A DNA stretch of 64,000 nt from Phytoseiulus persimilis (lineage: Eukaryota > Arthropoda > Arachnida > Mesostigmata > Phytoseiidae), in the NCBI GenBank assembly GCA_037576195.1, contig CM075102.1, forward strand, positions 28,206,745-28,270,744, given 5' to 3'. Position numbers and translations under genes: made by a program. Numbering within the stretch: the first letter of the stretch is position 1; every line of letters starts with the position of its first letter. Positions 10,310 to 61,312 of this stretch are shown in pieces. The notes under the pieces were generated by a model, which was not told where the DNA came from, did not search any database, and was given only the letters and a program-made list of their open reading frames with translations.

Positions 10310-10310
10310 N
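10310..10310. other. Single N: assembly junction at the start of duplicate copy 1
   Basis: One undetermined base separates the transposase fragment from the Gly-rich gene exon. Identity with the block at 52,806 begins at 10,313, two bases after the N. The exon to its right is cut mid-way, lacking its first 9 coding bases and its splice acceptor, both of which are present at 52,797. The N therefore marks an artificial join rather than one unread base. Confidence 0.8.
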
Positions 10311-11574
10311 CTTCTCATGGAACCTCCGGACATGCCTACAATCAGGGAGGCTCAGCCCAGAAAGCGTTCGGTTCGAAAGAAACTTTTGGAACCAAGGAAT
10401 CGTTCGGGTACTCCAATGAAGATTCTCACTCCCAAGGCGCCGGACAAGAGAGTCACGGCTCGCAATACAGTCAAGGAGGTGGATCATCAGGTTACAAAGA
10501 GGCTGCTCATGGCGGCGGTTATGGGGGATCAATTTACGGAGGTTCGAGCTACGGCGGCGGTGGAGGTTCGTTTTCCACGATTTCCCCGCCATCATATCAA
10601 ACACCGAACAAAAGCAACTTCGTCCGCGCTGAAGCTGTCTGTGGAGGCCAATGACGGAGATTGTAAGATGACCCTTTGTCTCCCCAGGTGGAGGAGGATA
10701 CGGAGGAGGGAGCTACGCTGCTGGAGGAGGATACGGAGGAGGGAGCTACGCTGCTGGAGGAGGATACGGAGGAGGGAGCTACGCTGGCGGAGGAGGATAC
10801 GGAGGAGGGAGCTACGCTGGCGGAGGAGGATACGGAGGAGGAAGTTATGCTAGCGGGGGAGGATACGGAGCAGGAAGCCACGGCGGAGCTGGGGCTGGGA
10901 AAGTGTACAAGGTCATTGCTGTGATCCCCATCGCTGGTCAAGGGGGAGGTCATTATTCCGGCGGTGATGGTGGAGGTCATTATTCCGGCGGTGGTGGTGG
11001 AGGTCATTACTCAGGCGGTGGTGGTGGAGGTCATTATTCCGGCGGTGGTGGTGGAGGTCATTATTCCGGCGGTGGTGGTGGAGGTCATTACTCAGGCGGT
11101 GGTGGTGGTGGAGGACATTACTCAGGCGGTGGGGGCGGACATCTTGCCGGAGGACATTCGCAGTGAGTAGAGCACATCTTTGTTGAACAGTTTCACAATC
11201 CTTCAAGGAAAGCGGGTGGGGGTCCACGTCACGGAGGATACTTACATTGATTGATCGATTTCCACTGAGACGATCACCGTGGAGAATTAAAAATGATGAG
11301 TTTTGAGCTCTTTGATTTGACGTCACAACGTTCCAGGGCTGGATACTTGGAAGGGCAGCACTCGGCGGGAGCTTCGGCTGGGGCAGGCTCCTATGCTTAC
11401 GACCAAGGATCTTCTGCAACGAAGAGCTTCGGCTCGAAGGAATCCTACGGAACCAAAGAATCGTATGGTTCTGAAAGCAGTTCGGCTCAAGCTCAGGGAG
11501 CGGGGCATCAAAGCCACGGGGCCCAGGGGAGTTCCGGTTCCTTCGCAACTAGTGGCAAGGAAATAGTCTTCTGA
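10311..11574 (+). CDS. Gly-rich secreted protein gene D, 3' exons only (copy 1, truncated by the N)
   Basis: Exons are 10,311-10,565 (5' end missing), 10,688-11,162 and 11,337-11,574, matching gene D at 52,797-54,067. The first carries AFGSKETFGTKESFG. The second carries GGGYGGGSYA repeats, a KVYKVIAVIPIAG insert and GGHYSGG repeats. The last ends with SFGSKESYGTKESYG, AGHQSHGAQG and SGKEIVF before a TGA at 11,572-11,574. Donors and acceptors are GT-AG, with phases 1 and 2 as in the full copy. The signal-peptide and pro-region exons are absent, so this is a truncated assembly copy rather than an independent gene. Confidence 0.8.
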
Positions 11575-11594
11575 CAGAACTAGCATCTCTCAGC

Positions 11595-11600
11595 AATAAA
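11595..11600 (+). terminator. Poly(A) signal of gene D, copy 1
   Basis: AATAAA 21 bases after the stop codon, in the context CAGCAATAAAGGG. The same signal occurs at 54,088-54,093 in copy 2. Confidence 0.7.
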
Positions 11601-14600
11601 GGGTAGAACCTCGAGGCGAATCGGTGTCGAGTTCCATCTTAATTTCGACTTCGGAGTCCGAGCTATTGGAACGGTCTCAGGACCTGGTTCCACACGCCAG
11701 CGGATGATCCCCCCCGCTCAGTTTTGTTGACTCAATTTACCGTGTTCGGGAGCACTGTGGGTGATGCAAGGCTCGCCCTAAACTAGTGGATCAGATTTGC
11801 TCGAAGAAGATGTGACCAGCCTCCAGAGAATCGCCAGAGAGACGCTAAATAGGAGCGTACCAAGCGTTTCCGGGGGTGTGGATGCCGTTCTTCCACCGTT
11901 GCGGCGGTGAATACTACGGGTCATGAATACTGGCGTGGGCTTCCGGGAAACGGACGGAGATCTCGAAACACGGGCAGACTGCTGATCCATGGATTGAGAC
12001 CAGTGGAGCCTGATTGCGGGGTTTCGGCTGTGGAGACAGACCCCCTCCCCCACCTGTCTGATCTGCTTTCGCTTGATTGAGTGTCCGCTATCCGCGGAAA
12101 CGACGCGCTGATGATCCAGATAGCATTCACTATGCTTGCAAGCAATCCATCTGGATCATTCGGTACGTTCGAACGCTACTCTAGCTCTTCCCAGGAGCTC
12201 AGAATCTGCTCGTGGCTCGACCGATGTGTTGACAGTTTTCGATGAAAATGCAACTATCTCGAAAACCACGGAAGATAGCGGTTTCCGGTTTGTCGCATCC
12301 GGACCAGGAGCTCTTGTTACATCGAAATTAAAAAAAAGCGAGTCGTGTCTCGAGCTTTTGAGGTTCAGAGTTTGCCATCCGAGCTGACCAGATTCTGAGA
12401 CGGAGAAGATTTCCCTCCAGGTAACTGCCTGTTTGATAATCGTCACGTGTCTGTGAATTTTCAAGGGCCACTTCATCCCTGGAATTATTTTCTCAGTGAA
12501 TTCGGCGAGCTTCAGCCAGAGCTCATGGAGTCGATTACGTCGGTCATGGAGTTGGTCGATAATTCATGTTGGAATGCACGCAAAAACGTCTTTCAAAATG
12601 TGGGAAAGTCGAGCGCGTCGTTTTTTTCGGCCGTCACTTGAACTCCAGGCAGAAAATAGGCGACTGGGGCCGTTTCCGACCAATAGAGCGAAATGGTCAC
12701 CCCCCCCCCCCCTAACTGATGAGACGGGACCGGAATCTTTGATACTTGACTCCTCCAACCAAGCGTTCAGTCTACTCCGCCAACCGACAACTATCCGCTT
12801 CTCTCGGCTCCATATTTCCACCTGATGTCCGTTTCTTCAGTGGAATTCGAAGAGCAACCTTTCCATTCCTCATCGAGCCTCACGAATGTGCTCTTTCTGA
12901 ACGGTGAAATGTGTTTTCCAAGAGGGAGCTGGATTGGGAGGTCAATGGATCCCAGAATGTCGTATTTCGCGTAGTCTTAGATGAGGCTTTTTTCCGCTGG
13001 ATGCATCCTGCTCCAGAGTTATGAAATTCGAGGCGGACAGCTCCAAGATTTCCGGACACCTTTCTCCATGCGGACCGAAGCTCTTCGCAAGATTTCGAAT
13101 CCGCGAACACAAGACAGAACCGCGGTGATTCTGCACATGTTCATCGCTCATCTTTACCCATAAGAGCATGAGTGTAACATGTGTGTATGACAGAATCTCA
13201 AAAGCCCGAGAGAGCTGAGAAACTTCCCCGAGGAGGAAATGGCCGTCGACGGAACCGTTCACAGCAGAATATCTGCCCAGCTCCTTCGAGGCGCACTATC
13301 AGGTACGAGGGAGTGAGAGCCTCTTTCTCTCTTTATTCCAGCGATTTTCTCAACCATACGATCAGATCATTCTCGCTCGGACAGAACGAGTTTGCCCTTG
13401 GATCTCCCAGCTAATGAACGAGCATTTTCAATGGTCCACAGGACGACATTGAGACGTAACGTGGGGCATCCCCAGGGGGAAAACACGGTTGGTTATCTCT
13501 TCTGGTGTTGATTATACCGCGAAGCCTGGAGAAACACGAGTAAGAGTCCAGACTTCGACGAATAGACTCAAGGATACGTCGGCTATGATTTTGGGGCGAA
13601 TGAATTTTATACCAGTATGCTCGGAGAGGCGACAACTGAAACCAATCAATCGGTTACTTTACTCTGCCATCATCGGTCAAGCGCCGACTTCCGCAGGGGG
13701 ATGAGAGGTGATCGATCTCTTATCGAATCGCGGAGCTGCTTGGGGCTGTTCTGATCAGTGTATGCTCAGGCCTATCCAACCCAGCGTATCCTGATTTGCT
13801 CGATTTTTTTCCGATTTCCGCTTCTCCCTCCTCTCCGCGGCTTCACTTGAGTTCGAAGAATGTGTCTCTTTGAAGTATCAAGACAGTCTGTGTTGAAGAA
13901 GTATTGTGTCGACTCCGGCCGTAATCGATGGAGTTTGGGATCGTGATGAGGGGAAGATGTCCATGAAGCGGAACAATGTTGACTCCCAGGGTGCTTTGTG
14001 ATGTAGCCAGAGTGCTCAACGTGGTTCAGCATCGTCTGCTGGTACGACGAACCCATCTTCTGATAAGAACAATACTCCAGAAAATCCCAGTGCAGTATCC
14101 CGGCAAAGAAACTCCTGAGTTTCTCGATAGAGCGTTGGGCCTGGAGTCAGAGCTATCGTGATAGCTGTCATTCCTCCGCCGATTTGATTCCTCTGAAGCG
14201 ATCAAATAGAGTTCTACTTCTCTCAAGGAAACCAGAACTCTCGATACCTCTCTCGTCAAGAATCTCATTCATTTTCTGGATTATCATGTAGGAAACAGGG
14301 GCCTTCCTCCCAATCGTTATCGAGGACAACAGAAACCTCCTCCCCTCTTATGAGATGATCCAGAGACGGCTTCGCAGATGAACTTGACAAGAACGATATC
14401 GACTCTCTAATAATTCACTCCGGATCAAGCCAGGCTCTCAATTTTATCTGCCACGTAGCGTGGGACACGCAAAATTTCCATCTGTCATATTACGGTGACC
14501 TCCGTCTCCAGCTCGGAAAGACATGCTTGACAGAGTACAGGTACCGCGTTCCACAAACATCCATGAGACCGGACAGAGAAAACCGGGATGTCCACCGCCC

Positions 14601-16202
14601 GAGGCGACGGTGAAAGAACTGATTTCGTTCTTCACAGAAATCGTCTGTGAGTGCTACGAGACGAGTGGAATTGTCTGAAAACCGAACCGGGCTGCTGGGG
14701 AATTCTCGTTATTCTGCCGAAATCTGGCTGAGATAAGCTACGAAGACTGACCAGATTGTTTTGGGTTGCGGGAATTCCCAGGACGCTCTCTCTCTAATGT
14801 AGAATTACAAGCATCGAGTCAGGACAACGTGCTCTGCTCAATGCACGTAGTCTCTTTGGAATGGGCTCGCGACTGAGCGATGATGATGAATTTATTTCCT
14901 GAGGTGAAGTTCGAGAAGGAAGGCAAGAGAGTCCCGCTCAACCCGGATCATAACGTTTTCCGCATCATGAACTCGAGGAAATGGAATTCACAACACACTG
15001 AGATATGCATCGACCTCGAGTGAGCGATCGCCCTTCACCGTGAGGTGGATGTCGCTGGAGGAGAAATGGGTGGTCCTAGCGGGGACCAATCAATGTTCCC
15101 AGGGGCTCACAATGGAGCATTCGACAATTTATCGAAAGAACTCGGCCATCCTTCTTCTCGGGAGAAAGTGGAGGCCGTAATCGGTCCCGGCCGCGGCAGC
15201 CGATTCCCGACGCCTGTGTAAGCAACCACTATGCCACGAAAACCAGTAGCCATCACACGTGACTTGCGCTTGCAGCGATTGTCCGTGAGGTTCTTTAAAT
15301 TATCTCATTCCACGACAAGGATTTACACACTTCGAAGACGGTGGCATCGACCGCTGGAGGAGCAATCAAAGCCATTCCTCAAAAGTTCGGTCATTGGAAA
15401 ATTTCGTTAACTTTGTTTCTCCCGGGCAGAAAAAGCCACGCAGTTCTGAGAGCCGTTCATCAGTAGGGTATGAGTCATTTCTGGAAAATTAAAGGTTCGC
15501 GAAGCGGAGCGAGAGACTACGCTTCAGGAATTCACAGTTTTTTGCCCATGTTCTCGTTAATTCAGAACGCTGAACCGATATGGCTATAGACATGCCGGTA
15601 ACAGAAAAAAAAAAAACACTTCAGTGTAGAGCTCTCCCTCAGCAGTATTCATCGGTTGAAGAGCTTGACCACAGGCTCAATTCGGGAAAATCACGATATT
15701 ATTTGAAGAAACCGTCCTGGATCGCCAGCGCTCGCGTAACACATCAAATGTGCTTCTCCAGAACAAAAAGCGTTTTCGGCTAGAGTTCAGGCGCACATTT
15801 CGTCCCCTCACCTTTTCCATGGAATATCTTACGTTCCCCGAGTTGATTTGCTTTCCCAATTGGTTGATGAAATAAAAATCTCGCGTGAGTGAATCGGAGG
15901 AGGTGAGCCAGCCAAGCGGCCAGACCGGCAATGAATGACAAGGGGAGACCGGCAGGCATGTGACAAAGCAGCTTTCAATGCTGAATCTCTTTTTTGACCG
16001 TTTTCTAGGAGCACGTGGGGAGCATTGGCGCGCGGTCTTTTCCGGCATGGTGTCGCTCGCAAACAATGCGTCTCACGATGACGCTGTTTGACCGCTCATG
16101 GAAGCCGTTCTTGAAATTGTCGGAAAACTAGCCAGGCGAGAAGCCGCCTCCGGGGAAGTACGAACGTTTTCGCCTTCTCTGCCGAAAATCGTCGCCGCCG
16201 TC
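11601..16202. other. Intergenic DNA inside duplicate copy 1
   Basis: About 4.6 kb between genes D and E. It contains a poly-C run near 12,700 and a poly-A run near 15,605, the only places where the two copies differ. Frames of 60-130 codons occur on both strands but have no domain, signal peptide or convincing splicing. No gene is called. Confidence 0.5.
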
Positions 16203-16208
16203 TATATT
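16203..16208 (+). promoter_or_regulatory. TATA-like element of gene E, copy 1
   Basis: TATATT lies 43 bases before the start codon at 16,251, leaving a 5' UTR of about 15-20 bases if transcription starts about 30 bases downstream. Genes A and C show the same TATA, short leader, micro-exon layout. Confidence 0.5.
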
Positions 16209-16250
16209 CTGGGTGTTCTCGACCGGGCACCGATCATTTTCCACAGAGAC

Positions 16251-18602
16251 ATGAGAGCGGTAGGTGCCCTGGTTGTACCACGCATCAGTGTAGCGCCGAG
16301 ACCTGTGGAAGCACAAAATTTTAGAGTTGGTGACCGACCAGTGAATCATCTGTGATGTTTGGTCTCCAGGTACTGTTGCTATCCATTTGTGGCGTAATTG
16401 TGTGGGGAGCTCCCACGACAGTTGCTCCGGTGGAAGATGTTTCGAGCACGATCGAGCCGGAAAAATCTTCAGAACTGCGCTCTGCAACTTTCAACTCAAA
16501 CGTTACTGTGGCCGCGAACGCCACGGACGTAGACGAGAAGATCTTCCCGTTCAACAATCAAGTATTCGGCCTCCCCTTCGTGAGTACATAAGAATGCGTA
16601 GAGAAGATTCAAACCAGACAGTGAGTCCTGCGACTCCATTCCTTGAATTCCAAGGCTGCGGTCTCAGATCATCACTCTTGACTCCGATCTACATCTTCCA
16701 GCCGGGATTCCAGAGTGCCCAGAGTCCTTTCGGTAATGGGTACGGTCTGAACCCATCATTCTCACCATTCCAAGGAAATATTTACGGTAAAGCCATCTCC
16801 ACTCGATTCCTCTTCAACGCGGACTCGCCTCCGCCACGGACTGAAGACTTCGTTCTTTGTTTGTAGGGCAGTATCCACACAGCCAGAACGTCTTCCCGCA
16901 AGGACTGTACTCACCTCAGGGTCAGAACCCTTTCTACGATCAAGGACCCGTACAGCCTGCTCAAGTTTTAGGCCAACCGGGTCAATTACCTGGGAATCAA
17001 GGGTTCCAACAAGTTCCGCTCCAGCTCCAGGGTCCTATTCCACAAGCGCCTCAAGGCTCGTTCCCGCAGGGCCAGCCACCACAAGGACCTTTCCAACAAG
17101 GACAATTCCCTCCGAACCGTTTTCCTCAGCAACAATTCCCCCAGAATCGATTCCCCCAAGGACAACCAGTGTCTCCCGGGAGCGGCAATAATGATAACAG
17201 TGAGCGACCATCTGCTCCGAATCCGGCGAGCGCGAATGGGAGTGGTGATCCTGAAGCCAACGAACAGCCTCAATCCGAAAACCCAAGCGGGGCTAGCGGT
17301 CAAAAAGAGCAGCAAGATGGGTCGCCGCCCCGATCTGAGAACCCTGGCGGAGAAGCAAGTAGGCCGAACCCCAGCGAGGGTGCGGGCCAGCTCCCAGGTC
17401 AGTTCCCAGCTGGATACCAGGACTTCCCGCAAACTCTGACTGGATCTCCGGAACGTTTCCGAAACGGAGGCCCGGCCTTTAATCAGAACTTTTTCTCACC
17501 GTCGTATCAGTTCTTGCCGAACGGACAATTCCTGCCCCAAGGGTTCGGCGGCCAGCTTTTAACACCCGGGGTATTTGCAGGGCAAGGCAATGGCCCTACG
17601 CAGTTGAATCCAAACCAACCTCAAAACCCCCAGGGACAAGGTCAGCTGTTCCAAAGCTCCCAGGGAGGGCCCCCACAAAACTTCCAGAGCCCCCAAGGCT
17701 TCTTTCCCCAGGGCGGATTTCCACCCGGGTTCCAAGGCGGCTACCCGCAGGTTCCTCAGGGTGTGTTCACGCAAGGCCCTCAAGGAGCGTTCGTACCGAG
17801 CCCGCAGGGGGCGATCCCCCAGGGAGCCGCACCGGGCCAGGGACCCTTCCAGACCGTCAACCCACAAAACTTCCCACCTCCAAACCCCGGACCGAATCCT
17901 CAGAATAGTGAAGAATCAGGACAGGGGGGCGCGAACCCAGCTGATTCCCCAAACAGTCCCGACGCCCAAGACGGCCCGAGCACTCAGTCACGCGGCGTTC
18001 CTCAAGGAGACGTTACCGTAGCCGGTAAGAACTAGGAGCGCTTGTGAATCGCATGCTGTAACGCCAGTTGCCGGAGAGGGGACCAAAAATATTCAGCGTA
18101 GTGTTACGACAGGTGGAATAGTCTCCGATGCTCCTGTCAGGCCGTTCGAAAATTTCGAAGTGAAGCGGCCCATTGCTCTCCCCGTGAAAATCAATCCTGT
18201 CACCTCAATGAAAATAATTCCACCACCAGGACCAAACCAGCAAAGTCCCTTGCCGGTCGATCAGGCTCCGCAACCCAGTCAGGGGTGAGTGAATGAACTG
18301 GGCCAACCTTCGGAGGAAGTTCGTTCACTCGAACAAGCCTTTCTCCTACGACTTTCTCCAGCACTCTTCCTTCTGCTCACTGCTCCGCGAAAGCACCTAC
18401 ACCGCTTCGACCAGTGAGGTCGTCTTCCGATGTTTGCGAGTCGCTCTCGCAGATCTTAGTCGCGTGCGTTTCTTCCAGGAGTGAGTTGCGATCACCGCCT
18501 GGTGATATGTATAACGAGGTGTCTGCCGTCGAAGCACCAGCAAAACAGACCGAGAGAACATCGAATACTGATAGACCCGCGACTCGGAGACCTGACCCCT
18601 GA
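16251..18602 (+). CDS. Secreted Pro/Gln/Gly-rich protein, gene E (copy 1), six exons, about 600 aa
   Basis: Exons are 16,251-16,259, 16,370-16,579, 16,702-16,786, 16,867-18,024, 18,068-18,284 and 18,479-18,602. Every junction is GT-AG and the phases agree throughout. Exon 1 encodes only MRA; exon 2 continues VLLLSICGVIVWGAPTTV, giving a clean signal peptide. A pro-region follows with sequons (NVT, NAT) and a boundary DVDEKIFPF. The large exon is about 385 codons of Pro, Gln, Gly, Asn and Phe in FPQGQ, GPFQQGQFP and QNPQGQG motifs, interrupted by an acidic, Ser-rich patch. The tail is less repetitive (FENFEVKRPIALPVKI) and ends ATRRPDP. No cysteine-rich or enzymatic domain is seen. The simple stop after exon 4 (18,035) and the stop after exon 5 are alternative ends, but the donor sites and phases favour the longer form. 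Function is unknown; an extracellular matrix, silk or cement role is inference. Confidence 0.75.
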
Positions 18603-18839
18603 GGCCGAATCTGACCCCAGAATACTTTGTTGCGGAGAAAATGCCAATTGTCAGACTGTACTTGCCCCGATAGGAGCCGGCCAAGCCAGATGATGGATTA
18701 TTGTAGTGGAACAGGGTGTTCGGTGCCGAAATCTGACAGTGATCTGCATGGTGATATAACATAGCACAACCCGGAAGGTTCTTTATGCCGAGAACAATCT
18801 ACTCCTGTTGTTTCTTCGACGATTCGGGGGCGCTACGAG

Positions 18840-18845
18840 AATAAA
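18840..18845 (+). terminator. Possible poly(A) signal of gene E
   Basis: AATAAA in AGAATAAATTTCG, about 240 bases after the stop of gene E. It lies just beyond the end of the duplicated block (18,820), so copy 2 lacks it. This fits copy 2 being cut by the N at 61,312. Confidence 0.4.
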
Positions 18846-25386: not shown

Positions 25387-25389
25387 GGA

Positions 25390-46441: not shown

Positions 46442-46447
46442 AATAAA
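46442..46447 (+). terminator. Poly(A) signal of gene A
   Basis: AATAAA 60 bases after the stop of gene A, in CTCAATAAAAAAGAC. Confidence 0.7.
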
Positions 46448-46671: not shown

Positions 46672-46680
46672 GGAATAAAA
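46672..46680 (+). promoter_or_regulatory. Possible TATA-like element of gene B
   Basis: GGAATAAAA lies about 40 bases before the ATG of gene B, at the spacing seen for the TATA boxes of genes A and C. The match is weaker. Confidence 0.35.
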
Positions 46681-46715
46681 CTTTCTTCGTTGGGCCTTTC
46701 TGCCTGGATGCCAAG

Positions 46716-47612
46716 ATGAGGGCGTTTCGGGTAGGTTAAGCGATTGGAAACATAATCGATGTTCGCCTTTTTCATCGAACCGTATTCTGAATTTCCGATT
46801 GCTTCCCGAAATCCTTCAAGGTTTGTTTTGTTGCTCTGGCGCTCGTTTGTTGCGAGGTGAAGCCTCAGGAGAGAGCATCCGTGAACCAAGGGGACGTGAC
46901 AGCGGCTGACAGTGCATCAACACCCAATCATGGATCTCAAGACACAGAACACGGAACTGGAGAGAGAGGTATACTGCTGGATTTGCTTCGAAGAGGCTCT
47001 GGGTGAGTATGGATTTCGAATCTGAATCTTTCATTCAAACTTGAGGCAAAACTTCGCCAAAATGCTGCCTCCGTATACCGCGACTTCGAGCGCAACCACT
47101 GCAGCGAGGCATCATTTTCGCAGATACAAAGCAGCGGGAGGCGGCATAAATTTCAATTTAGGTGTATCAGCTGGAGCCTACAAGGAAGCCGGGTGAGCTG
47201 GAAGTCAGTGTTGTCTCGTTTCGGTGGACAATAGTATGGCAGTTCTCACAGTTAATGAAATTTTCGCCGCTCTCTATTTCCAGGCATGACGCGAACCACG
47301 GTAAGAACGAGAAAGTTCAGAGCTTCGTCTCACAACATTCTCCGACTTCGAGCACGGCATTCTGGTAGTCTTACGTGTTCAGGTTTTTTGAAATCAGGCG
47401 GATATGGCGATGGTGGGGGCTATGGTGGAGGATGCGGAGGCGACCACGGCAGAGGTTATGGTGGAGGCTATGGAGAAGGTCACGGCGGGGGTTTCCGTGG
47501 TGGATATGGAGGGGGTTATGGCGGAGGACACGCCGAAAGTTATGGTGGAGATCACGGCAAGTATTTTCCAACTTTTCGTATTGATCACTCGTGCCTTTTT
47601 GCCGCGTCTTGA
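46716..47612 (+). CDS. Secreted Gly-rich protein, gene B (five exons, about 165 aa), paralogue of A
   Basis: Exons are 46,716-46,730, 46,821-47,002, 47,124-47,192, 47,284-47,300 and 47,398-47,612. The first encodes MRAFR and joins in phase to VCFVALALVCCEVKPQE, a clean signal peptide. The pro-region ends HGTGERGILLDLLRRGS, matching gene A at the E-R-G-I-L boundary. Exon 3 is again 69 nt in the same phases and encodes AAGGGINFNLGVSAGAYKEA. Exon 4 is a 17-nt micro-exon. The last exon carries Gly/Tyr/His repeats (GGYGEGHGGGFRGGYGGGYG). Two endings are possible: read-through to the TGA at 47,610-47,612 (ending HSCLFAAS), or use of a GC donor (CACG/GCAAGT at 47,556) joining an acceptor at 47,641 and ending GNQG at 47,655. 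Gene B lacks the F-G-x-K-E module. Function unknown. Confidence 0.7.
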
Positions 47613-47752
47613 ATTCCCGTGGTGAATGACGGAGATTTCAGGTAATCAAGGTTGACGCTGCGCTACAGACTCGATTCGAGGGAATGTCGATAGCCCGACT
47701 GGAGCCGATAAGTTACAAAGAGAAAAAGGTCATGAATATTGAAATGTCTTGA

Positions 47753-47758
47753 AATAAA
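47753..47758 (+). terminator. Poly(A) signal of gene B
   Basis: AATAAA about 100-140 bases after either possible stop of gene B, in TTGAAATAAAGTCG. Confidence 0.65.
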
Positions 47759-49445
47759 GTCGATTCCTCTGATGACACTGTCTTTTCACTGTGCGGGCTC
47801 GGGCTCATAATACTGGCGCCAGGCTCGCTCGGGCTTATTTTCTCCGCTATCCACTCCGATCTCTCGAAAGAAACCAGTGGCGTCAGAAGATGCACCGATA
47901 TGCTGCGGTCCGAAGCGTCTAAAGTGCATGTGGCGATGCACGACTGGCCAAGACGGCACCGATCATCCCACCGAGTCTGAGGAAAGAGAGTTCGTGGAAC
48001 CGTGTACTCAACAGATCGCTGTCAGTAGATTCGGTCTGGGACTACTCGACGTTTCTTGCTCGAGGAAGTCTTCACAATTTCTCAGTTTCGACCCCGGCAT
48101 TCTTATCTGGAGTTTCTGCTCAGATGCGGAATCCAAACCGAATGTTCTCCGGCCTAGAAGCCTTGTGCGAGGAACTTATACTCGACCCGGAAGCTACCCG
48201 GATTCAGGCTGAACTTTGAAGGATCCATTTCCGTCCGGAAAAACACTGTGCGCGAAGGTCAGGAAACCCGTGTAACTGATAAGCCTTACACCGCCAACTT
48301 CCTCAGCTGTTCGGGACGTCCGGTATCGGGCCCAGGAGCGTAACCTTTCAGATTATGCTTCCCCCGACGTTCACTCGGGGTCGATTACGCGAGATTTTCG
48401 ACGACGCGAGATTTTACGCTTACGGTTGGAGTAAGCGCATCGGACGAGCGCCAATATCCTGCCCCCTCCGATTCCAGCTGTGAGCGGGTCAGAAACACGA
48501 CCAATCGTGGAGCCGCCAGAATCTCAGTTCGTGGAGCAGCGGGCAGTTCCAGAAGATGTCCAAGAAGAACGTATCCCGATTCCATGGAAAGTATCGTTCC
48601 TGTACCGCGTTGCCAAGCCTCTACTGCCTTCTCATCGAAGGTGGCACTGACCGCATCGGGTGGATGCATTTTCAGAGCGTCCGCGAGGAGTTCCCTCCAG
48701 ACGTTGTCCTACGACGAAAGTCAGACAGAGTTGGGCGCTACAATCGAACGATGGGGAAGGCATATCTTTCATTCGGCTGGCATCGATGAAGTCACAGCAG
48801 TGGAGGCGTTCTGCCGAGTCGGGGAATCCCTCATCATTGTCCTAACGAGAGTTTTCTGGACCGTGGCATTTTCAAGTCAAATAAATGAAACGAATCTCCA
48901 ACTGAATGATAATTATCGTCACCACGAACGAAAGATAGGTGAGAACACTACAAATATCGAGCCAAAAGCTATCTCTTTTTGTATTTTCCGAAACCTCTCC
49001 ATGAATCACCACCCGATTCGCTGCGTATCTGGGGTTCTCCAGAAAACAGAAGCTCAGGGTCAAGAGAGGCGTGCGAATTTTCTGCGGTCGTTTCCGAATA
49101 TGGCGTAAGGGATTGCCCCGAAGTCCGATCATCGAACCAGAAAGATGCGCGGGAATGGGAGCGGAAATCGAACATCCCACCTAAAGTGGAAAAATTGATG
49201 CAATGTCAGTGATGTTTTCCGAACTGTGACAGCAATCTTTCGCAGGTCGGGTTGCATCCCAGGATTCTCGGCATCAATCGTCACCGAGAGTCAGACTGTC
49301 GACCATGCAGTGTCATGTTTCTGTGTTGTCCACTCGACGAGCAGGAGAAGATGCTGCGTTCCGTATTCGAAACTCCTCCTTTCCAACGAGGCTGAGGGAG
49401 GTTCCAACTTTTCGGCAGTCCGGCAGCAGCCTGCGTGGACATTGG
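47759..49445. other. No gene recognised between genes B and C
   Basis: About 1.7 kb. A 94-codon minus-strand frame (48,385-48,669) and a 174-codon plus frame (48,584-49,108) overlap each other and match no family. Neither has supporting splice or signal features. Confidence 0.4.
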
Positions 49446-49453
49446 TGACGTCA
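49446..49453 (+). promoter_or_regulatory. CRE-like palindrome upstream of gene C
   Basis: TGACGTCA, a perfect CRE palindrome, lies 47 bases before the TATA-like box of gene C, with a half site (ACGTCA) shortly after. This is a typical distance for a proximal CREB/ATF-type site. The match is to a short consensus, so function is inference. Confidence 0.4.
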
Positions 49454-49499
49454 AGAAACGTCAAGATGGCGAGGGTTTCTCAACCAAAAAGCAGAAGGG

Positions 49500-49505
49500 T
49501 ATAAG
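49500..49505 (+). promoter_or_regulatory. TATA-like box of gene C
   Basis: TATAAG in GGGTATAAGAAGAG, 42 bases before the ATG at 49,542, matching the compact promoter layout of genes A and E. Confidence 0.55.
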
Positions 49506-49541
49506 AAGAGAGAATGTTTTGAGACCGGCACAACAGTCAAA

Positions 49542-51283
49542 ATGAACAAGGTAGGAAACGAGCGAATGTTTTGAAAACGGCTGCGCTAGCAACTCGAACT
49601 TTGGATATCATGAACTTCCATTCCTGAATGATAAATTTAGAAAGTTAAATCATGGTTCTCGGTGTGCTACAGATCGTGCTTCTCGCCCTGGTCGCTTCGG
49701 CTGCGCTTGCTGCTCCGATTGAAGAGAGCAGCGAGTCAACGACCACGGAGCTTCCCAAAGACAAAGATGGCAACAAAACCGATGTAGAGCAGCGAGGAAT
49801 ATTCCCGGGAGGCTTCGGAGGAGGATTCGGCGGAGGTTTCCCCACCTACGATCAATTCGCTTCTCAGCATTTCAACCAAGGCCAACAGGCTGTAAGTGCA
49901 CTCGAATTATTCTGGTTCCGACTCTCAACGAGAACGGACAAGTTCCTAAAGCGAACACCGTCCATTAGTCTGCAGGTCAGCAGGGTCAGGGTGCTTACAA
50001 ATACGACCACGGAGCAACGGGTGCCAAAGAGTTCGGAAACAAAGAATCATTCGGCAACAAGGAAAGCTTCGGTTTCTCGAACTCCAACTCTTACAACCAG
50101 GGATCAGGCTTCAATAACCAGGCCGGTGGATTCAAGCAAGGCCAGCAGGCCGGAGCCTACCAAGTCGGTCAGCAAGGTTACGGCGGAGGCTACGGTTTGG
50201 GCGGCGCCGCCGCGCATTCAGGCGGATACGGATACGGCGGCTACGGTGGTGCAGGTGTGCCGATCGGAGGCGGCTACGGTGGTGCCTACGGTAACTCCGG
50301 CTTCAACCAAGGCGGTCATGCCGCCGGTCAATTCGCCGGCCAAGGCGCCTACAACTACAACCAGGGCCATTCATCCAACACTGGTTTCGGAAACAAGGAA
50401 TCTTGGGGTAATAAGGAAGCTTTCGGCAAAGAAGCTTCTGCCTCTCACGCCGTCGGAGCCGGGCAGCAGAGTCACGCGTCTGGATTCAACAACGCCAACC
50501 ATGCCTCGGGAAGCACTGTTGCTAGCAACTCAGCCGGTGTTGCCCCTGTCACCGGAATTATCGGTGGGGGCGTGGGTCCCGTCGTTCCTCCAGTTGGTGG
50601 AGCTGTTGTGCCCATTGGTGGAGTCGGTGGGCCCATTGGAGGAGTCGGTGGGCCCATTGGAGGAGTCGGTGGGCCTGTTGGTGGAGTCCTGCCTCCGGTC
50701 GGAGGAGGTGTTGTCGCTCCCGTAGGTGGTATCGGCGCTGTAGGCGGCGGTATCGGCGCTGCCGGCGCTGGAGCGTCCTACGTTGAAGGTGGATCTATCA
50801 GTGGCGGAGCCGTCGGCGGGGGCGTTGCACCGATTGGGGGTGTGGTAGGTGGAGGCGTCCCAATCGCTCCTGTCGTCGCTGGAGGAGTCGCTCCCGTCGG
50901 ACTCGTTGGTGGATCATCCTATAAAGAAGGGTAATTCATCTCGAATTTCAATGACAATGTGAACCATGAGTGCAAACAGAGATATCCGAGATATCGACTG
51001 ATGGAATCAACTCCTAAAGGGGTCTGATTGTCTTTCCAGATTCGCTCAAGGACAACAGGCCTCAGGAGCTGCTCAGGGAGAATCAGCCTACGGATACAAC
51101 CAGGGAGGGTCAGCCACCAAGACTTTCGGCAACAAAGAATCCTTCGGAACAAAAGAATCTTTTGGATCCGAGAGTAACGCAGGACACGCTGTAGGAAGCG
51201 GCGCACAATCATCCGCGTCTCAAGGATCGCAGTTATCGTTCGCTCAAGGGGAGAAACAGGGATCCGTCGGTGTTGTCGGTTAG
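49542..51283 (+). CDS. Secreted Gly-rich protein, gene C (four exons, about 473 aa), three copies of the F-G-x-K-E module
   Basis: Exons are 49,542-49,550, 49,673-49,891, 49,981-50,930 and 51,040-51,283; phases agree. The micro-exon gives MNK, followed by IVLLALVASAALAAPIEES, a strong signal peptide. The pro-region with sequon NKT ends DVEQRGIFPGGFGGG. Exon 3 uses the acceptor at 49,980, because only that frame continues the family sequence (QGQGAYKYDHGATGAKEFGN); the nearby upstream AG shifts frame. The module occurs as FGNKESFGNKESFG, FGNKESWGNKEAFGKE with AVGAGQQSHASG, and FGNKESFGTKESFGSES with AVGSGAQSSASQG. Between them is a GGYGYGGYGG region and a hydrophobic Gly/Val/Pro region with VGGPIGG repeats. 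It has no cysteine. Function unknown. Confidence 0.85.
50605..50690 (+). repeat. 21-bp coding tandem repeat (VGGPIGG) in gene C
   Basis: Units of GGAGTCGGTGGGCCCATTG repeat about four times, encoding VGGPIGG, with a degenerate last unit VGGPVGG. The period is a multiple of 3, so unit number can change without a frameshift. Confidence 0.8.
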
Positions 51284-51404
51284 AGCGTCAGTCGCTCCTT
51301 TAGTCTGTGATCAAACAGTTGTACATACGAGCCAGTAACGACAGGTGTGAATTTGCGATTTCATGGAACCGGTCTGTGAATGAGCGTTAGGATTATGCAT
51401 GTCC

Positions 51405-51410
51405 AATAAA
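51405..51410 (+). terminator. Poly(A) signal of gene C
   Basis: AATAAA about 120 bases after the stop of gene C, in GTCCAATAAAGCGG. Confidence 0.7.
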
Positions 51411-52091
51411 GCGGAGAGTTCATAACTTGAAGTTCGTTCGTCTCCCGCTCCGTCCACTCGGGATGTTCCACTAATTTACCGTCCTGAGCGACTCCCCGCG
51501 GATCCATTCTACGTTTGGTCTGAGGAGCTCTGTGGTGAGCAGTATGAGGGAGCTTCATATGTCGTTGGGTGGAGCCCTGTCCGTCTCGGTCACGAAGAAG
51601 TCAAAAAGGGATGCGAGGAAGTACCCGTACTTCGAGGGAGGTTTTGGTTGTGAAAGATACCTTTACCAACGTCGGGAATGTACAGGAGCTTGCTACGCCG
51701 CAGCAGGTCCAAGAAACAGATTGAACATCCGTCGATGACTCGAACTCGTACTGTGCGTACTTCAGAGAAGTTCTCGTGCGCGTTTAAGGAAGCGGGAGCT
51801 GGACTCATGTTCTGCATCATCTTTCCCCACGAATTACGGTATCCCCACAGCAGATATATGAATCGCTTTCCGATGGATCCACTCACTCGACTTCTATTGC
51901 TTTGTTTGAATCTTGATGATTTTATCAGCGAGATCTGGTCGCTGGTCAAGCTTCTGTAGAACAACCACTACCTCAAGAAAACAGACCTTGAGGTGGAATG
52001 ATAATCTTGCCAGGGAAGAGTACGATTCCGGAGAGAACATTGCTCGAGGAGTTAACGAGAAACTCATTGACCTTTGACAAAAGAAGAAAGC
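51411..52091. other. No gene recognised between genes C and D
   Basis: About 0.7 kb with short frames on both strands only. It should contain the promoter of gene D, but no clear TATA box is visible. Confidence 0.45.
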
Positions 52092-54067
52092 GCCATGAGA
52101 AGGGTTGGTGTCGAAGTGACCTGATCTCTTGGAAACGTTTGCTGTGACAGGGGGAATATTCTCCCAGTTTCGGAGTCGACTCAATGAGTGATGGAAGAAA
52201 ATTCTCGTTCTAATTTATTCCAGTGGCGTCTTTATCATTCGTTGCTGGTGAGTATCGTGGTCGCGAGCTCTCTAGGACAGGAGAGCACGACTACTCCAGC
52301 TATTACTCTCGACCAAGATGCGGTGACCGTTAACAGCACGGCTTCACTGCCAGCCTCCCTTGCAACAAACTCAACTATCGGAGACGGAAATTCCACCGCA
52401 CTCGAAGAGAGGCACATTTTCCCGGGTTCCCACGGTGGCTATGGGGGTTATGGAGGCTATGGCGGCGGAGCAGGAGGTTATCAGTCCGGTGGATACAATC
52501 AAGGAGGATATTCGGTTAGTATTTCACAGTTCAGCAAGCAGTAAGGTTCTGGTTTGATTTCGCTCTGGATCGATGTGCGCGGACGTCTTTGGTGGGAACG
52601 TTCCATAATGAATATTAGAAGTGCGCCGCGAGCTCCCGAATCAGATATGAATGTCTATGACGGCTCGCAACGCTCACAATTAAACTAAATCGATGAGAAT
52701 GTGAAGGTGCTGCCGGTCGAGCTTTCGATCCTCCAAGGATCGCTTGCGCGAACGCATCGTGTGGACCTGTCCGTGACATTTGTGATTGACCGACAGAGTG
52801 GAGCCTCTCATGGAACCTCCGGACATGCCTACAATCAGGGAGGCTCAGCCCAGAAAGCGTTCGGTTCGAAAGAAACTTTTGGAACCAAGGAATCGTTCGG
52901 GTACTCCAATGAAGATTCTCACTCCCAAGGCGCCGGACAAGAGAGTCACGGCTCGCAATACAGTCAAGGAGGTGGATCATCAGGTTACAAAGAGGCTGCT
53001 CATGGCGGCGGTTATGGGGGATCAATTTACGGAGGTTCGAGCTACGGCGGCGGTGGAGGTTCGTTTTCCACGATTTCCCCGCCATCATATCAAACACCGA
53101 ACAAAAGCAACTTCGTCCGCGCTGAAGCTGTCTGTGGAGGCCAATGACGGAGATTGTAAGATGACCCTTTGTCTCCCCAGGTGGAGGAGGATACGGAGGA
53201 GGGAGCTACGCTGCTGGAGGAGGATACGGAGGAGGGAGCTACGCTGCTGGAGGAGGATACGGAGGAGGGAGCTACGCTGGCGGAGGAGGATACGGAGGAG
53301 GGAGCTACGCTGGCGGAGGAGGATACGGAGGAGGAAGTTATGCTAGCGGGGGAGGATACGGAGCAGGAAGCCACGGCGGAGCTGGGGCTGGGAAAGTGTA
53401 CAAGGTCATTGCTGTGATCCCCATCGCTGGTCAAGGGGGAGGTCATTATTCCGGCGGTGATGGTGGAGGTCATTATTCCGGCGGTGGTGGTGGAGGTCAT
53501 TACTCAGGCGGTGGTGGTGGAGGTCATTATTCCGGCGGTGGTGGTGGAGGTCATTATTCCGGCGGTGGTGGTGGAGGTCATTACTCAGGCGGTGGTGGTG
53601 GTGGAGGACATTACTCAGGCGGTGGGGGCGGACATCTTGCCGGAGGACATTCGCAGTGAGTAGAGCACATCTTTGTTGAACAGTTTCACAATCCTTCAAG
53701 GAAAGCGGGTGGGGGTCCACGTCACGGAGGATACTTACATTGATTGATCGATTTCCACTGAGACGATCACCGTGGAGAATTAAAAATGATGAGTTTTGAG
53801 CTCTTTGATTTGACGTCACAACGTTCCAGGGCTGGATACTTGGAAGGGCAGCACTCGGCGGGAGCTTCGGCTGGGGCAGGCTCCTATGCTTACGACCAAG
53901 GATCTTCTGCAACGAAGAGCTTCGGCTCGAAGGAATCCTACGGAACCAAAGAATCGTATGGTTCTGAAAGCAGTTCGGCTCAAGCTCAGGGAGCGGGGCA
54001 TCAAAGCCACGGGGCCCAGGGGAGTTCCGGTTCCTTCGCAACTAGTGGCAAGGAAATAGTCTTCTGA
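52092..54067 (+). CDS. Secreted Gly-rich protein, gene D (full copy, about 424 aa)
   Basis: Well-supported exons are 52,224-52,514, 52,797-53,058, 53,181-53,655 and 53,830-54,067, in phase throughout. The first exon is uncertain: ATGAGAAGG at 52,092-52,100 followed by a weak GTTGGT donor would give MRR plus WRLYHSLLVSIVVASSLGQ, a plausible signal peptide; otherwise translation starts at 52,188. The pro-region has sequons (NST twice) and ends ALEERHIFPGSHGG. Then come GGYGGYGG, module 1 (AFGSKETFGTKESFG, QGAGQESHGSQ), GGGYGGGSYA repeats, a hydrophobic KVYKVIAVIPIAG, GGHYSGG repeats, and module 2 (SFGSKESYGTKESYG, QGAGHQSHGAQ), ending SGKEIVF. Exon 2 and the upstream DNA exist only here, so this is the complete copy. 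Function unknown. Confidence 0.8.
53181..53640 (+). repeat. Two coding tandem-repeat arrays in gene D exon 4
   Basis: The first array (53,181-53,365) repeats a 33-bp unit encoding GGGGYGGGSYA about 5-6 times. The second (about 53,436-53,640) repeats a 27-33 bp unit encoding GGGGGGHYSG about seven times. Their period is a multiple of 3. Between them sits a short non-repetitive hydrophobic segment. The same arrays occur at 10,688-11,147. Confidence 0.85.
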
Positions 54068-54087
54068 CAGAACTAGCATCTCTCAGC

Positions 54088-54093
54088 AATAAA
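54088..54093 (+). terminator. Poly(A) signal of gene D, copy 2
   Basis: AATAAA 21 bases after the gene D stop; identical to copy 1. Confidence 0.7.
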
Positions 54094-57000
54094 GGGTAGA
54101 ACCTCGAGGCGAATCGGTGTCGAGTTCCATCTTAATTTCGACTTCGGAGTCCGAGCTATTGGAACGGTCTCAGGACCTGGTTCCACACGCCAGCGGATGA
54201 TCCCCCCCGCTCAGTTTTGTTGACTCAATTTACCGTGTTCGGGAGCACTGTGGGTGATGCAAGGCTCGCCCTAAACTAGTGGATCAGATTTGCTCGAAGA
54301 AGATGTGACCAGCCTCCAGAGAATCGCCAGAGAGACGCTAAATAGGAGCGTACCAAGCGTTTCCGGGGGTGTGGATGCCGTTCTTCCACCGTTGCGGCGG
54401 TGAATACTACGGGTCATGAATACTGGCGTGGGCTTCCGGGAAACGGACGGAGATCTCGAAACACGGGCAGACTGCTGATCCATGGATTGAGACCAGTGGA
54501 GCCTGATTGCGGGGTTTCGGCTGTGGAGACAGACCCCCTCCCCCACCTGTCTGATCTGCTTTCGCTTGATTGAGTGTCCGCTATCCGCGGAAACGACGCG
54601 CTGATGATCCAGATAGCATTCACTATGCTTGCAAGCAATCCATCTGGATCATTCGGTACGTTCGAACGCTACTCTAGCTCTTCCCAGGAGCTCAGAATCT
54701 GCTCGTGGCTCGACCGATGTGTTGACAGTTTTCGATGAAAATGCAACTATCTCGAAAACCACGGAAGATAGCGGTTTCCGGTTTGTCGCATCCGGACCAG
54801 GAGCTCTTGTTACATCGAAATTAAAAAAAAGCGAGTCGTGTCTCGAGCTTTTGAGGTTCAGAGTTTGCCATCCGAGCTGACCAGATTCTGAGACGGAGAA
54901 GATTTCCCTCCAGGTAACTGCCTGTTTGATAATCGTCACGTGTCTGTGAATTTTCAAGGGCCACTTCATCCCTGGAATTATTTTCTCAGTGAATTCGGCG
55001 AGCTTCAGCCAGAGCTCATGGAGTCGATTACGTCGGTCATGGAGTTGGTCGATAATTCATGTTGGAATGCACGCAAAAACGTCTTTCAAAATGTGGGAAA
55101 GTCGAGCGCGTCGTTTTTTTCGGCCGTCACTTGAACTCCAGGCAGAAAATAGGCGACTGGGGCCGTTTCCGACCAATAGAGCGAAATGGTCACCCCCCCC
55201 CCCCTAACTGATGAGACGGGACCGGAATCTTTGATACTTGACTCCTCCAACCAAGCGTTCAGTCTACTCCGCCAACCGACAACTATCCGCTTCTCTCGGC
55301 TCCATATTTCCACCTGATGTCCGTTTCTTCAGTGGAATTCGAAGAGCAACCTTTCCATTCCTCATCGAGCCTCACGAATGTGCTCTTTCTGAACGGTGAA
55401 ATGTGTTTTCCAAGAGGGAGCTGGATTGGGAGGTCAATGGATCCCAGAATGTCGTATTTCGCGTAGTCTTAGATGAGGCTTTTTTCCGCTGGATGCATCC
55501 TGCTCCAGAGTTATGAAATTCGAGGCGGACAGCTCCAAGATTTCCGGACACCTTTCTCCATGCGGACCGAAGCTCTTCGCAAGATTTCGAATCCGCGAAC
55601 ACAAGACAGAACCGCGGTGATTCTGCACATGTTCATCGCTCATCTTTACCCATAAGAGCATGAGTGTAACATGTGTGTATGACAGAATCTCAAAAGCCCG
55701 AGAGAGCTGAGAAACTTCCCCGAGGAGGAAATGGCCGTCGACGGAACCGTTCACAGCAGAATATCTGCCCAGCTCCTTCGAGGCGCACTATCAGGTACGA
55801 GGGAGTGAGAGCCTCTTTCTCTCTTTATTCCAGCGATTTTCTCAACCATACGATCAGATCATTCTCGCTCGGACAGAACGAGTTTGCCCTTGGATCTCCC
55901 AGCTAATGAACGAGCATTTTCAATGGTCCACAGGACGACATTGAGACGTAACGTGGGGCATCCCCAGGGGGAAAACACGGTTGGTTATCTCTTCTGGTGT
56001 TGATTATACCGCGAAGCCTGGAGAAACACGAGTAAGAGTCCAGACTTCGACGAATAGACTCAAGGATACGTCGGCTATGATTTTGGGGCGAATGAATTTT
56101 ATACCAGTATGCTCGGAGAGGCGACAACTGAAACCAATCAATCGGTTACTTTACTCTGCCATCATCGGTCAAGCGCCGACTTCCGCAGGGGGATGAGAGG
56201 TGATCGATCTCTTATCGAATCGCGGAGCTGCTTGGGGCTGTTCTGATCAGTGTATGCTCAGGCCTATCCAACCCAGCGTATCCTGATTTGCTCGATTTTT
56301 TTCCGATTTCCGCTTCTCCCTCCTCTCCGCGGCTTCACTTGAGTTCGAAGAATGTGTCTCTTTGAAGTATCAAGACAGTCTGTGTTGAAGAAGTATTGTG
56401 TCGACTCCGGCCGTAATCGATGGAGTTTGGGATCGTGATGAGGGGAAGATGTCCATGAAGCGGAACAATGTTGACTCCCAGGGTGCTTTGTGATGTAGCC
56501 AGAGTGCTCAACGTGGTTCAGCATCGTCTGCTGGTACGACGAACCCATCTTCTGATAAGAACAATACTCCAGAAAATCCCAGTGCAGTATCCCGGCAAAG
56601 AAACTCCTGAGTTTCTCGATAGAGCGTTGGGCCTGGAGTCAGAGCTATCGTGATAGCTGTCATTCCTCCGCCGATTTGATTCCTCTGAAGCGATCAAATA
56701 GAGTTCTACTTCTCTCAAGGAAACCAGAACTCTCGATACCTCTCTCGTCAAGAATCTCATTCATTTTCTGGATTATCATGTAGGAAACAGGGGCCTTCCT
56801 CCCAATCGTTATCGAGGACAACAGAAACCTCCTCCCCTCTTATGAGATGATCCAGAGACGGCTTCGCAGATGAACTTGACAAGAACGATATCGACTCTCT
56901 AATAATTCACTCCGGATCAAGCCAGGCTCTCAATTTTATCTGCCACGTAGCGTGGGACACGCAAAATTTCCATCTGTCATATTACGGTGACCTCCGTCTC

Positions 57001-58693
57001 CAGCTCGGAAAGACATGCTTGACAGAGTACAGGTACCGCGTTCCACAAACATCCATGAGACCGGACAGAGAAAACCGGGATGTCCACCGCCCGAGGCGAC
57101 GGTGAAAGAACTGATTTCGTTCTTCACAGAAATCGTCTGTGAGTGCTACGAGACGAGTGGAATTGTCTGAAAACCGAACCGGGCTGCTGGGGAATTCTCG
57201 TTATTCTGCCGAAATCTGGCTGAGATAAGCTACGAAGACTGACCAGATTGTTTTGGGTTGCGGGAATTCCCAGGACGCTCTCTCTCTAATGTAGAATTAC
57301 AAGCATCGAGTCAGGACAACGTGCTCTGCTCAATGCACGTAGTCTCTTTGGAATGGGCTCGCGACTGAGCGATGATGATGAATTTATTTCCTGAGGTGAA
57401 GTTCGAGAAGGAAGGCAAGAGAGTCCCGCTCAACCCGGATCATAACGTTTTCCGCATCATGAACTCGAGGAAATGGAATTCACAACACACTGAGATATGC
57501 ATCGACCTCGAGTGAGCGATCGCCCTTCACCGTGAGGTGGATGTCGCTGGAGGAGAAATGGGTGGTCCTAGCGGGGACCAATCAATGTTCCCAGGGGCTC
57601 ACAATGGAGCATTCGACAATTTATCGAAAGAACTCGGCCATCCTTCTTCTCGGGAGAAAGTGGAGGCCGTAATCGGTCCCGGCCGCGGCAGCCGATTCCC
57701 GACGCCTGTGTAAGCAACCACTATGCCACGAAAACCAGTAGCCATCACACGTGACTTGCGCTTGCAGCGATTGTCCGTGAGGTTCTTTAAATTATCTCAT
57801 TCCACGACAAGGATTTACACACTTCGAAGACGGTGGCATCGACCGCTGGAGGAGCAATCAAAGCCATTCCTCAAAAGTTCGGTCATTGGAAAATTTCGTT
57901 AACTTTGTTTCTCCCGGGCAGAAAAAGCCACGCAGTTCTGAGAGCCGTTCATCAGTAGGGTATGAGTCATTTCTGGAAAATTAAAGGTTCGCGAAGCGGA
58001 GCGAGAGACTACGCTTCAGGAATTCACAGTTTTTTGCCCATGTTCTCGTTAATTCAGAACGCTGAACCGATATGGCTATAGACATGCCGGTAACAGAAAA
58101 AAAAAAACACTTCAGTGTAGAGCTCTCCCTCAGCAGTATTCATCGGTTGAAGAGCTTGACCACAGGCTCAATTCGGGAAAATCACGATATTATTTGAAGA
58201 AACCGTCCTGGATCGCCAGCGCTCGCGTAACACATCAAATGTGCTTCTCCAGAACAAAAAGCGTTTTCGGCTAGAGTTCAGGCGCACATTTCGTCCCCTC
58301 ACCTTTTCCATGGAATATCTTACGTTCCCCGAGTTGATTTGCTTTCCCAATTGGTTGATGAAATAAAAATCTCGCGTGAGTGAATCGGAGGAGGTGAGCC
58401 AGCCAAGCGGCCAGACCGGCAATGAATGACAAGGGGAGACCGGCAGGCATGTGACAAAGCAGCTTTCAATGCTGAATCTCTTTTTTGACCGTTTTCTAGG
58501 AGCACGTGGGGAGCATTGGCGCGCGGTCTTTTCCGGCATGGTGTCGCTCGCAAACAATGCGTCTCACGATGACGCTGTTTGACCGCTCATGGAAGCCGTT
58601 CTTGAAATTGTCGGAAAACTAGCCAGGCGAGAAGCCGCCTCCGGGGAAGTACGAACGTTTTCGCCTTCTCTGCCGAAAATCGTCGCCGCCGTC
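54094..58693. other. Intergenic DNA inside duplicate copy 2
   Basis: Same 4.6 kb as 11,601-16,202, without recognisable genes. The poly-C run near 55,195 and the poly-A run near 58,098 are each one base shorter than in copy 1. Confidence 0.5.
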
Positions 58694-58699
58694 TATATT
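58694..58699 (+). promoter_or_regulatory. TATA-like element of gene E, copy 2
   Basis: TATATT 43 bases before the ATG at 58,742, identical to copy 1. Confidence 0.5.
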
Positions 58700-58741
58700 C
58701 TGGGTGTTCTCGACCGGGCACCGATCATTTTCCACAGAGAC

Positions 58742-61093
58742 ATGAGAGCGGTAGGTGCCCTGGTTGTACCACGCATCAGTGTAGCGCCGAGACCTGTGGA
58801 AGCACAAAATTTTAGAGTTGGTGACCGACCAGTGAATCATCTGTGATGTTTGGTCTCCAGGTACTGTTGCTATCCATTTGTGGCGTAATTGTGTGGGGAG
58901 CTCCCACGACAGTTGCTCCGGTGGAAGATGTTTCGAGCACGATCGAGCCGGAAAAATCTTCAGAACTGCGCTCTGCAACTTTCAACTCAAACGTTACTGT
59001 GGCCGCGAACGCCACGGACGTAGACGAGAAGATCTTCCCGTTCAACAATCAAGTATTCGGCCTCCCCTTCGTGAGTACATAAGAATGCGTAGAGAAGATT
59101 CAAACCAGACAGTGAGTCCTGCGACTCCATTCCTTGAATTCCAAGGCTGCGGTCTCAGATCATCACTCTTGACTCCGATCTACATCTTCCAGCCGGGATT
59201 CCAGAGTGCCCAGAGTCCTTTCGGTAATGGGTACGGTCTGAACCCATCATTCTCACCATTCCAAGGAAATATTTACGGTAAAGCCATCTCCACTCGATTC
59301 CTCTTCAACGCGGACTCGCCTCCGCCACGGACTGAAGACTTCGTTCTTTGTTTGTAGGGCAGTATCCACACAGCCAGAACGTCTTCCCGCAAGGACTGTA
59401 CTCACCTCAGGGTCAGAACCCTTTCTACGATCAAGGACCCGTACAGCCTGCTCAAGTTTTAGGCCAACCGGGTCAATTACCTGGGAATCAAGGGTTCCAA
59501 CAAGTTCCGCTCCAGCTCCAGGGTCCTATTCCACAAGCGCCTCAAGGCTCGTTCCCGCAGGGCCAGCCACCACAAGGACCTTTCCAACAAGGACAATTCC
59601 CTCCGAACCGTTTTCCTCAGCAACAATTCCCCCAGAATCGATTCCCCCAAGGACAACCAGTGTCTCCCGGGAGCGGCAATAATGATAACAGTGAGCGACC
59701 ATCTGCTCCGAATCCGGCGAGCGCGAATGGGAGTGGTGATCCTGAAGCCAACGAACAGCCTCAATCCGAAAACCCAAGCGGGGCTAGCGGTCAAAAAGAG
59801 CAGCAAGATGGGTCGCCGCCCCGATCTGAGAACCCTGGCGGAGAAGCAAGTAGGCCGAACCCCAGCGAGGGTGCGGGCCAGCTCCCAGGTCAGTTCCCAG
59901 CTGGATACCAGGACTTCCCGCAAACTCTGACTGGATCTCCGGAACGTTTCCGAAACGGAGGCCCGGCCTTTAATCAGAACTTTTTCTCACCGTCGTATCA
60001 GTTCTTGCCGAACGGACAATTCCTGCCCCAAGGGTTCGGCGGCCAGCTTTTAACACCCGGGGTATTTGCAGGGCAAGGCAATGGCCCTACGCAGTTGAAT
60101 CCAAACCAACCTCAAAACCCCCAGGGACAAGGTCAGCTGTTCCAAAGCTCCCAGGGAGGGCCCCCACAAAACTTCCAGAGCCCCCAAGGCTTCTTTCCCC
60201 AGGGCGGATTTCCACCCGGGTTCCAAGGCGGCTACCCGCAGGTTCCTCAGGGTGTGTTCACGCAAGGCCCTCAAGGAGCGTTCGTACCGAGCCCGCAGGG
60301 GGCGATCCCCCAGGGAGCCGCACCGGGCCAGGGACCCTTCCAGACCGTCAACCCACAAAACTTCCCACCTCCAAACCCCGGACCGAATCCTCAGAATAGT
60401 GAAGAATCAGGACAGGGGGGCGCGAACCCAGCTGATTCCCCAAACAGTCCCGACGCCCAAGACGGCCCGAGCACTCAGTCACGCGGCGTTCCTCAAGGAG
60501 ACGTTACCGTAGCCGGTAAGAACTAGGAGCGCTTGTGAATCGCATGCTGTAACGCCAGTTGCCGGAGAGGGGACCAAAAATATTCAGCGTAGTGTTACGA
60601 CAGGTGGAATAGTCTCCGATGCTCCTGTCAGGCCGTTCGAAAATTTCGAAGTGAAGCGGCCCATTGCTCTCCCCGTGAAAATCAATCCTGTCACCTCAAT
60701 GAAAATAATTCCACCACCAGGACCAAACCAGCAAAGTCCCTTGCCGGTCGATCAGGCTCCGCAACCCAGTCAGGGGTGAGTGAATGAACTGGGCCAACCT
60801 TCGGAGGAAGTTCGTTCACTCGAACAAGCCTTTCTCCTACGACTTTCTCCAGCACTCTTCCTTCTGCTCACTGCTCCGCGAAAGCACCTACACCGCTTCG
60901 ACCAGTGAGGTCGTCTTCCGATGTTTGCGAGTCGCTCTCGCAGATCTTAGTCGCGTGCGTTTCTTCCAGGAGTGAGTTGCGATCACCGCCTGGTGATATG
61001 TATAACGAGGTGTCTGCCGTCGAAGCACCAGCAAAACAGACCGAGAGAACATCGAATACTGATAGACCCGCGACTCGGAGACCTGACCCCTGA
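58742..61093 (+). CDS. Secreted Pro/Gln/Gly-rich protein, gene E (copy 2)
   Basis: Exons are 58,742-58,750, 58,861-59,070, 59,193-59,277, 59,358-60,515, 60,559-60,775 and 60,970-61,093. The coding sequence is the same as the copy at 16,251-18,602, with MRA micro-exon, signal peptide, pro-region ending DVDEKIFPF, PQG-rich body and basic/proline tail. The 3' flank is cut at 61,311, before the AATAAA seen at 18,840 in copy 1. It probably represents the same gene, counted twice. Confidence 0.75.
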
Positions 61094-61311
61094 GGCCGAA
61101 TCTGACCCCAGAATACTTTGTTGCGGAGAAAATGCCAATTGTCAGACTGTACTTGCCCCGATAGGAGCCGGCCAAGCCAGATGATGGATTATTGTAGTGG
61201 AACAGGGTGTTCGGTGCCGAAATCTGACAGTGATCTGCATGGTGATATAACATAGCACAACCCGGAAGGTTCTTTATGCCGAGAACAATCTACTCCTGTT
61301 GTTTCTTCGAC

Positions 61312-61312
61312 N
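61312..61312. other. Single N: assembly junction at the end of duplicate copy 2
   Basis: Identity with copy 1 runs to the last base before this N (61,311 matches 18,820); the next base is unrelated. Together with the N at 10,310 this brackets a terminally redundant segment. Confidence 0.85.

Follow-up and report, generated by a model that had tools for sequence, protein, structure and literature searches.

An 8.5 kb direct repeat with edges at single Ns, probably the overlapping ends of two contigs laid apart in one scaffold

'Homotype' false duplications, which lack heterozygous k-mers, are described as assembly errors (PMC9516828), and the scaffolder LINKS puts a single 'n' where contigs overlap (PMC4524009). 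Here we analyse a 64,000-base stretch of sequence CM075102.1 (hereafter the window; 51% G+C), which holds an 8.5 kb block twice in direct orientation. As in the homotype cases of PMC9516828, one scaffold contains near-identical sequence two times, gap characters lie at the copies and there are no allelic differences; unlike in those cases, the copies start 42.5 kb apart, and the contigs carrying them would be in the wrong order or orientation. The locus is likewise similar to the LINKS overlap joins of PMC4524009 in having a single N between pieces and overlapping contigs left unmerged, but the ends that overlap here are not those placed together. A literature search on SSPACE single-N joins led to one paper, on a tree genome, with no description of such joins in its passages. 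We estimate a probability of about 0.9 that the repeat is an assembly error arising from overlapping contig ends placed apart (including an allelic version of this), rather than a biological duplication. The repeat is genuinely present in the file, and we judge it to be an assembly artefact.

Exactly three characters in the window are not A, C, G or T; these are single Ns at positions 10,310, 36,666 and 61,312. Self-BLAST gave one long direct repeat, 10,313-18,820 against 52,806-61,311, with 8,508 columns, 0 mismatches and 2 gaps, in agreement with a preliminary description of this DNA, which had reported direct copies with edges bounded by Ns. It had also placed the start of copy 1 two bases past an N, as BLAST does; when the copies are walked base by base, the match reaches as far as the base next to the N (10,311/52,804), for one substitution (T/C at 10,312/52,805), the two added bases being one match and one mismatch. 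The start of copy 1 may therefore be the contig edge itself, not a point two bases inside it. With this extension, copy 1 occupies 10,311-18,820 and copy 2 occupies 52,804-61,311, both on the plus strand. Both edges lie where a false duplication would have them, at gap characters: copy 1 starts at most two bases from the N at 10,310, and copy 2 stops at the base immediately before the N at 61,312. By chance, one boundary would fall within two bases of one of three Ns with a probability of about 2e-4, and both would do so with a probability of about 5e-8 (rough, post hoc values).

The copies differ by one extra C, one extra A and the single substitution at the second base past the N at 10,310. 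The two gaps, already recognised as homopolymer length differences in the preliminary description, are C13 versus C12 at 12,700/55,193 and A12 versus A11 at 15,605/58,097. When runs of at least nine A or T and at least eight C or G were listed, the only homopolymers of ten or more in the window were the two runs holding these indels; both indels thus occur in long homopolymers, as sequencing or consensus slippage would give. From 10,313 onwards there are 0 substitutions in 8,506 aligned bases, giving a 95% upper bound on divergence of 3.5e-4 per site; at 0.1% divergence, zero differences over this length would be expected with a probability of only 2e-4. The divergence is therefore no greater than sequencing error, again as in a false duplication. 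The block also contains two tandem arrays with 33-base and 27-base units (10,689-10,882 and 10,945-11,139 in copy 1; 53,182-53,375 and 53,438-53,632 in copy 2), with copy numbers of 5.9 and 7.1, respectively, that are equal in both copies. Together, the near-identity and the equal array lengths are compatible with a single stretch of DNA that was assembled two times, or with a duplication so young that it has not yet diverged.

The genes at the edges of the block help to tell which flanks are original. Gene D, one of a group of glycine-rich genes taken up below, was read by eye. Its first exon (52,191-52,514, plus strand, from the ATG to a putative GT donor) lies only upstream of copy 2. Exon 2 starts at approximately 52,797, after ...GACCGACAG, and together with a repetitive last exon reaches 53,656 (plus strand; splice sites predicted by eye). 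Copy 1 begins 7 bases within exon 2 and so cuts it mid-exon, leaving a truncated equivalent of gene D at 10,311-11,163 (plus strand), while the first exon and the splice acceptor are kept at copy 2 only. Because copy 1 starts inside exon 2, the original left flank is that of copy 2. For gene E, which has its main open frame at 16,845-18,032 in copy 1 and 59,336-60,523 in copy 2 (both plus strand), the first AATAAA on the 3' side is at 18,840-18,845 (plus strand), 20 bases beyond the block and present at copy 1 only; in 60,001-62,500, the region surrounding the end of copy 2, a plus-strand search gave no AATAAA and no ATTAAA. Copy 1 therefore probably has the original right flank, an argument made weaker by the last exon of gene E being a prediction. 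Both the gene D truncation and the one-sided 3' flank of gene E had been noted in the preliminary description, and both hold up, the second less firmly.

Each copy thus goes on where the other stops, like a dovetail, with the polyadenylation half of the pattern being the weaker. One foreign flank per copy, each at an N, is the pattern of two contigs overlapping end to end. The scaffold in the window would then comprise four or more contigs, with a single N at each join. Putative contig 1 (1-10,309) begins at the left end of the window or before it, and a degenerate minus-strand transposase gene appears to be cut by its right edge. Past the N at 10,310 (the presumed join of contigs 1 and 2), contig 2 (10,311-36,665) would open with the block and carry the truncated gene D, gene E, UTP15, Rab14 and a BAG2-like gene; copy 1 continues unbroken into 18,821. 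The N at 36,666 would join contigs 2 and 3 (alternatively, it is one ambiguous base), and contig 3 (36,667-61,311) would carry glycine-rich genes A to D and close with the block. Finally, the N at 61,312 would join contig 3 to contig 4 (61,313-64,000), whose right end lies outside the window or is the window edge.

Contigs 2 and 3 would be neighbours in the genome with a single 8.5 kb overlap in common; presumably the assembler left this overlap unmerged, and the scaffolder would have put it at the far ends of the pair rather than superimposing the two ends. Perhaps an overlap of 8.5 kb was judged too large by the scaffolder, so that nothing kept the two contigs from being chained in an incorrect order. 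In the true sequence, contig 3 would lead, by way of a single copy of the block, into contig 2 (52,803 - block - 18,821), continuous over approximately 42.5 kb. Two layouts would bring the ends of the block together in this manner. Our first choice is a swap, with a true order of 1-3-2-4. In the other, contigs 2 and 3 are inverted in place (1-rc2-rc3-4, with rc for an inverted contig), which likewise unites the block ends; this layout, with the order right and each of the two contigs inverted, is absent from the preliminary description.

The same 52,803 - block - 18,821 junction, and the same near-identical copies, are also predicted if a unit of 42.5 kb forms a tandem array or a circle, also one whose breakpoint is elsewhere than at 10,311, where 36,665 would continue into 36,667 and one contig would overlap itself; the N at 36,666 could then be one ambiguous base instead of a join. 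We consider this improbable, since the unit contains ordinary nuclear genes (Rab14 and UTP15), the Ns at all three sites look alike, and a unit starting at 10,311 leaves gene D intact only at the duplication junction. With such a unit, assembly errors would therefore still be needed at both joins, 10,310 and 61,312. That the 42.5 kb unit, with its glycine-rich secreted-protein cluster, UTP15 and Rab14, is a recent near-identical array or circle whose self-overlap was caught by the scaffold strikes us as distinctly improbable. The sequence as given, having two copies with differing flanks, could also be taken at face value as a real and very recent dispersed direct duplication of 8.5 kb. However, a derived copy should then hold both new breakpoints, while here there is one per copy, with the edges touching Ns on opposite copies, and there is no substitution except at the second base past an N; such a duplication is very improbable indeed.

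Of the three readings offered in the preliminary description, overlapping or misordered contigs is therefore the best supported (by the N edges on opposite copies, the complementary flanks and internal differences only in homopolymers), while a simple tandem duplication from 10,311 is disfavoured by gene D. Within the explanation by overlapping contig ends, contigs 2 and 3 could derive from two haplotypes sharing a homozygous 8.5 kb stretch, the overlap then being allelic instead of a single haplotype assembled two times. The block is without allelic substitutions, and we regard this version as unlikely; if true, it would still be an assembly artefact and the correction needed would be identical.

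Several observations weigh against overlapping contig ends placed apart, and the searches made lend no positive support to the joins that would replace the present ones (1-3 and 2-4, or 1-rc2 and rc3-4). A search for overlaps of 6-399 bases with at most 8% mismatch between different contigs in any orientation, with the window edges taken as the outer edges of contigs 1 and 4, found none. When 2.7-3 kb of sequence next to the contig edges 10,309, 36,665, 36,667 and 61,313 was compared with the window by BLAST, the edges of different contigs likewise shared nothing beyond one 25-base match (33,994/40,451). Under a gap-estimating scaffolder, moreover, a swap predicts a gap of around 16 kb at the join of contigs 1 and 2, not an overlap, which counts somewhat against it. 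The single N at 10,310 thus speaks somewhat for inversion in place, or for a program without gap estimation.

The transposase gene at the end of contig 1 gives a further point of this kind. Frames within 9,667-10,089 and 10,083-10,307 (minus strand) have weak matches to DDE_Tnp_4, with E = 1e-4 and 0.041, both under the curated cut-off, and a third frame is without a match; contig 1 ends 11 bases short of the start of the DDE_Tnp_4 match on the minus strand. Going by these weak matches, the minus strand of 9,667-10,307 would hold a degenerate DDE transposase gene that has a frame change and is cut short at the contig edge. With the gene cut at 10,309, the missing 5' part is expected on the true right-hand neighbour of contig 1, but it was not found in selected stop-free frames near 36,665 and 36,667 (the right edge of contig 2 and the left edge of contig 3) or within contig 4. 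At the starts of contigs 3 and 4, these were minus-strand frames (5 + 3 + 1 + 3), a subset of all frames. This miss means little, since only selected frames were covered and the gene is degenerate.

Other searches were similarly unproductive. Among 20 selected stop-free frames in 33,421-39,209, no Pfam match exceeded the curated cut-off (the best was EGF1_RECK, E = 0.013), and no gene could be traced across 36,666. In contig 4, and on either side of 36,666 (the right edge of contig 2 and the left edge of contig 3), the scanned frames had sub-threshold Pfam matches only, to EGF1_RECK (E = 0.013), TMEM89 (E = 0.038) and DUF898 (E = 0.59). A viral-contig search with one piece of the transposase found six stretches fitting the pattern, none of which (0/6) encoded a relative. 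A tRNA scan and an Rfam scan at gathering scores found nothing, and a frame towards the end of contig 2 (35,718-35,978, minus strand) had no match among solved structures.

If left uncorrected, the scaffold will falsely show gene E as duplicated and add a spurious, truncated gene D, and it will give the wrong gene order or orientation around UTP15 and Rab14. The significance of the finding is that of a correction only. UTP15 is at 24.4-25.1 kb and Rab14 at 30.0-30.8 kb, and together these genes indicate a nuclear eukaryotic genome. From Rab14 and the glycine-rich sequences, we judge the source to be an animal and probably an arthropod. A further gene in contig 2, at 32.4-33.7 kb on the minus strand, is one that we take to resemble BAG2. 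Pfam gave no match for two frames of this gene, and for one of them the best match among solved structures (E = 1e-5; best stretch, 22 residues) is a chain whose only name is 'E8'.

The glycine-rich genes of contig 3 (A to D, found by eye) are clustered at 45,284-53,656 and encode at least four proteins, which are probably secreted. At least three of them share a signal-like N-terminus, with an R ahead of a GIFPGG-like start. The cluster also has recurring repeats, for example FGNKESFG or FGTRETYG. Pfam found no match in the frames at 45,284-45,631 (gene A) and 52,188-52,541 (gene D). Gene E, at 16,345-18,600, encodes a long protein rich in proline, glutamine and glycine, its exons besides the main frame having been placed by eye; Pfam found no match in that main frame (copy 1). 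Contig 1 also contains two fold-back elements, at 1,371-1,827 and 8,197-8,856, which belong to one family: their arms are 77-94% alike when inverted, and the elements are up to 84% alike. Both are probably small non-autonomous transposons, a name that we infer.
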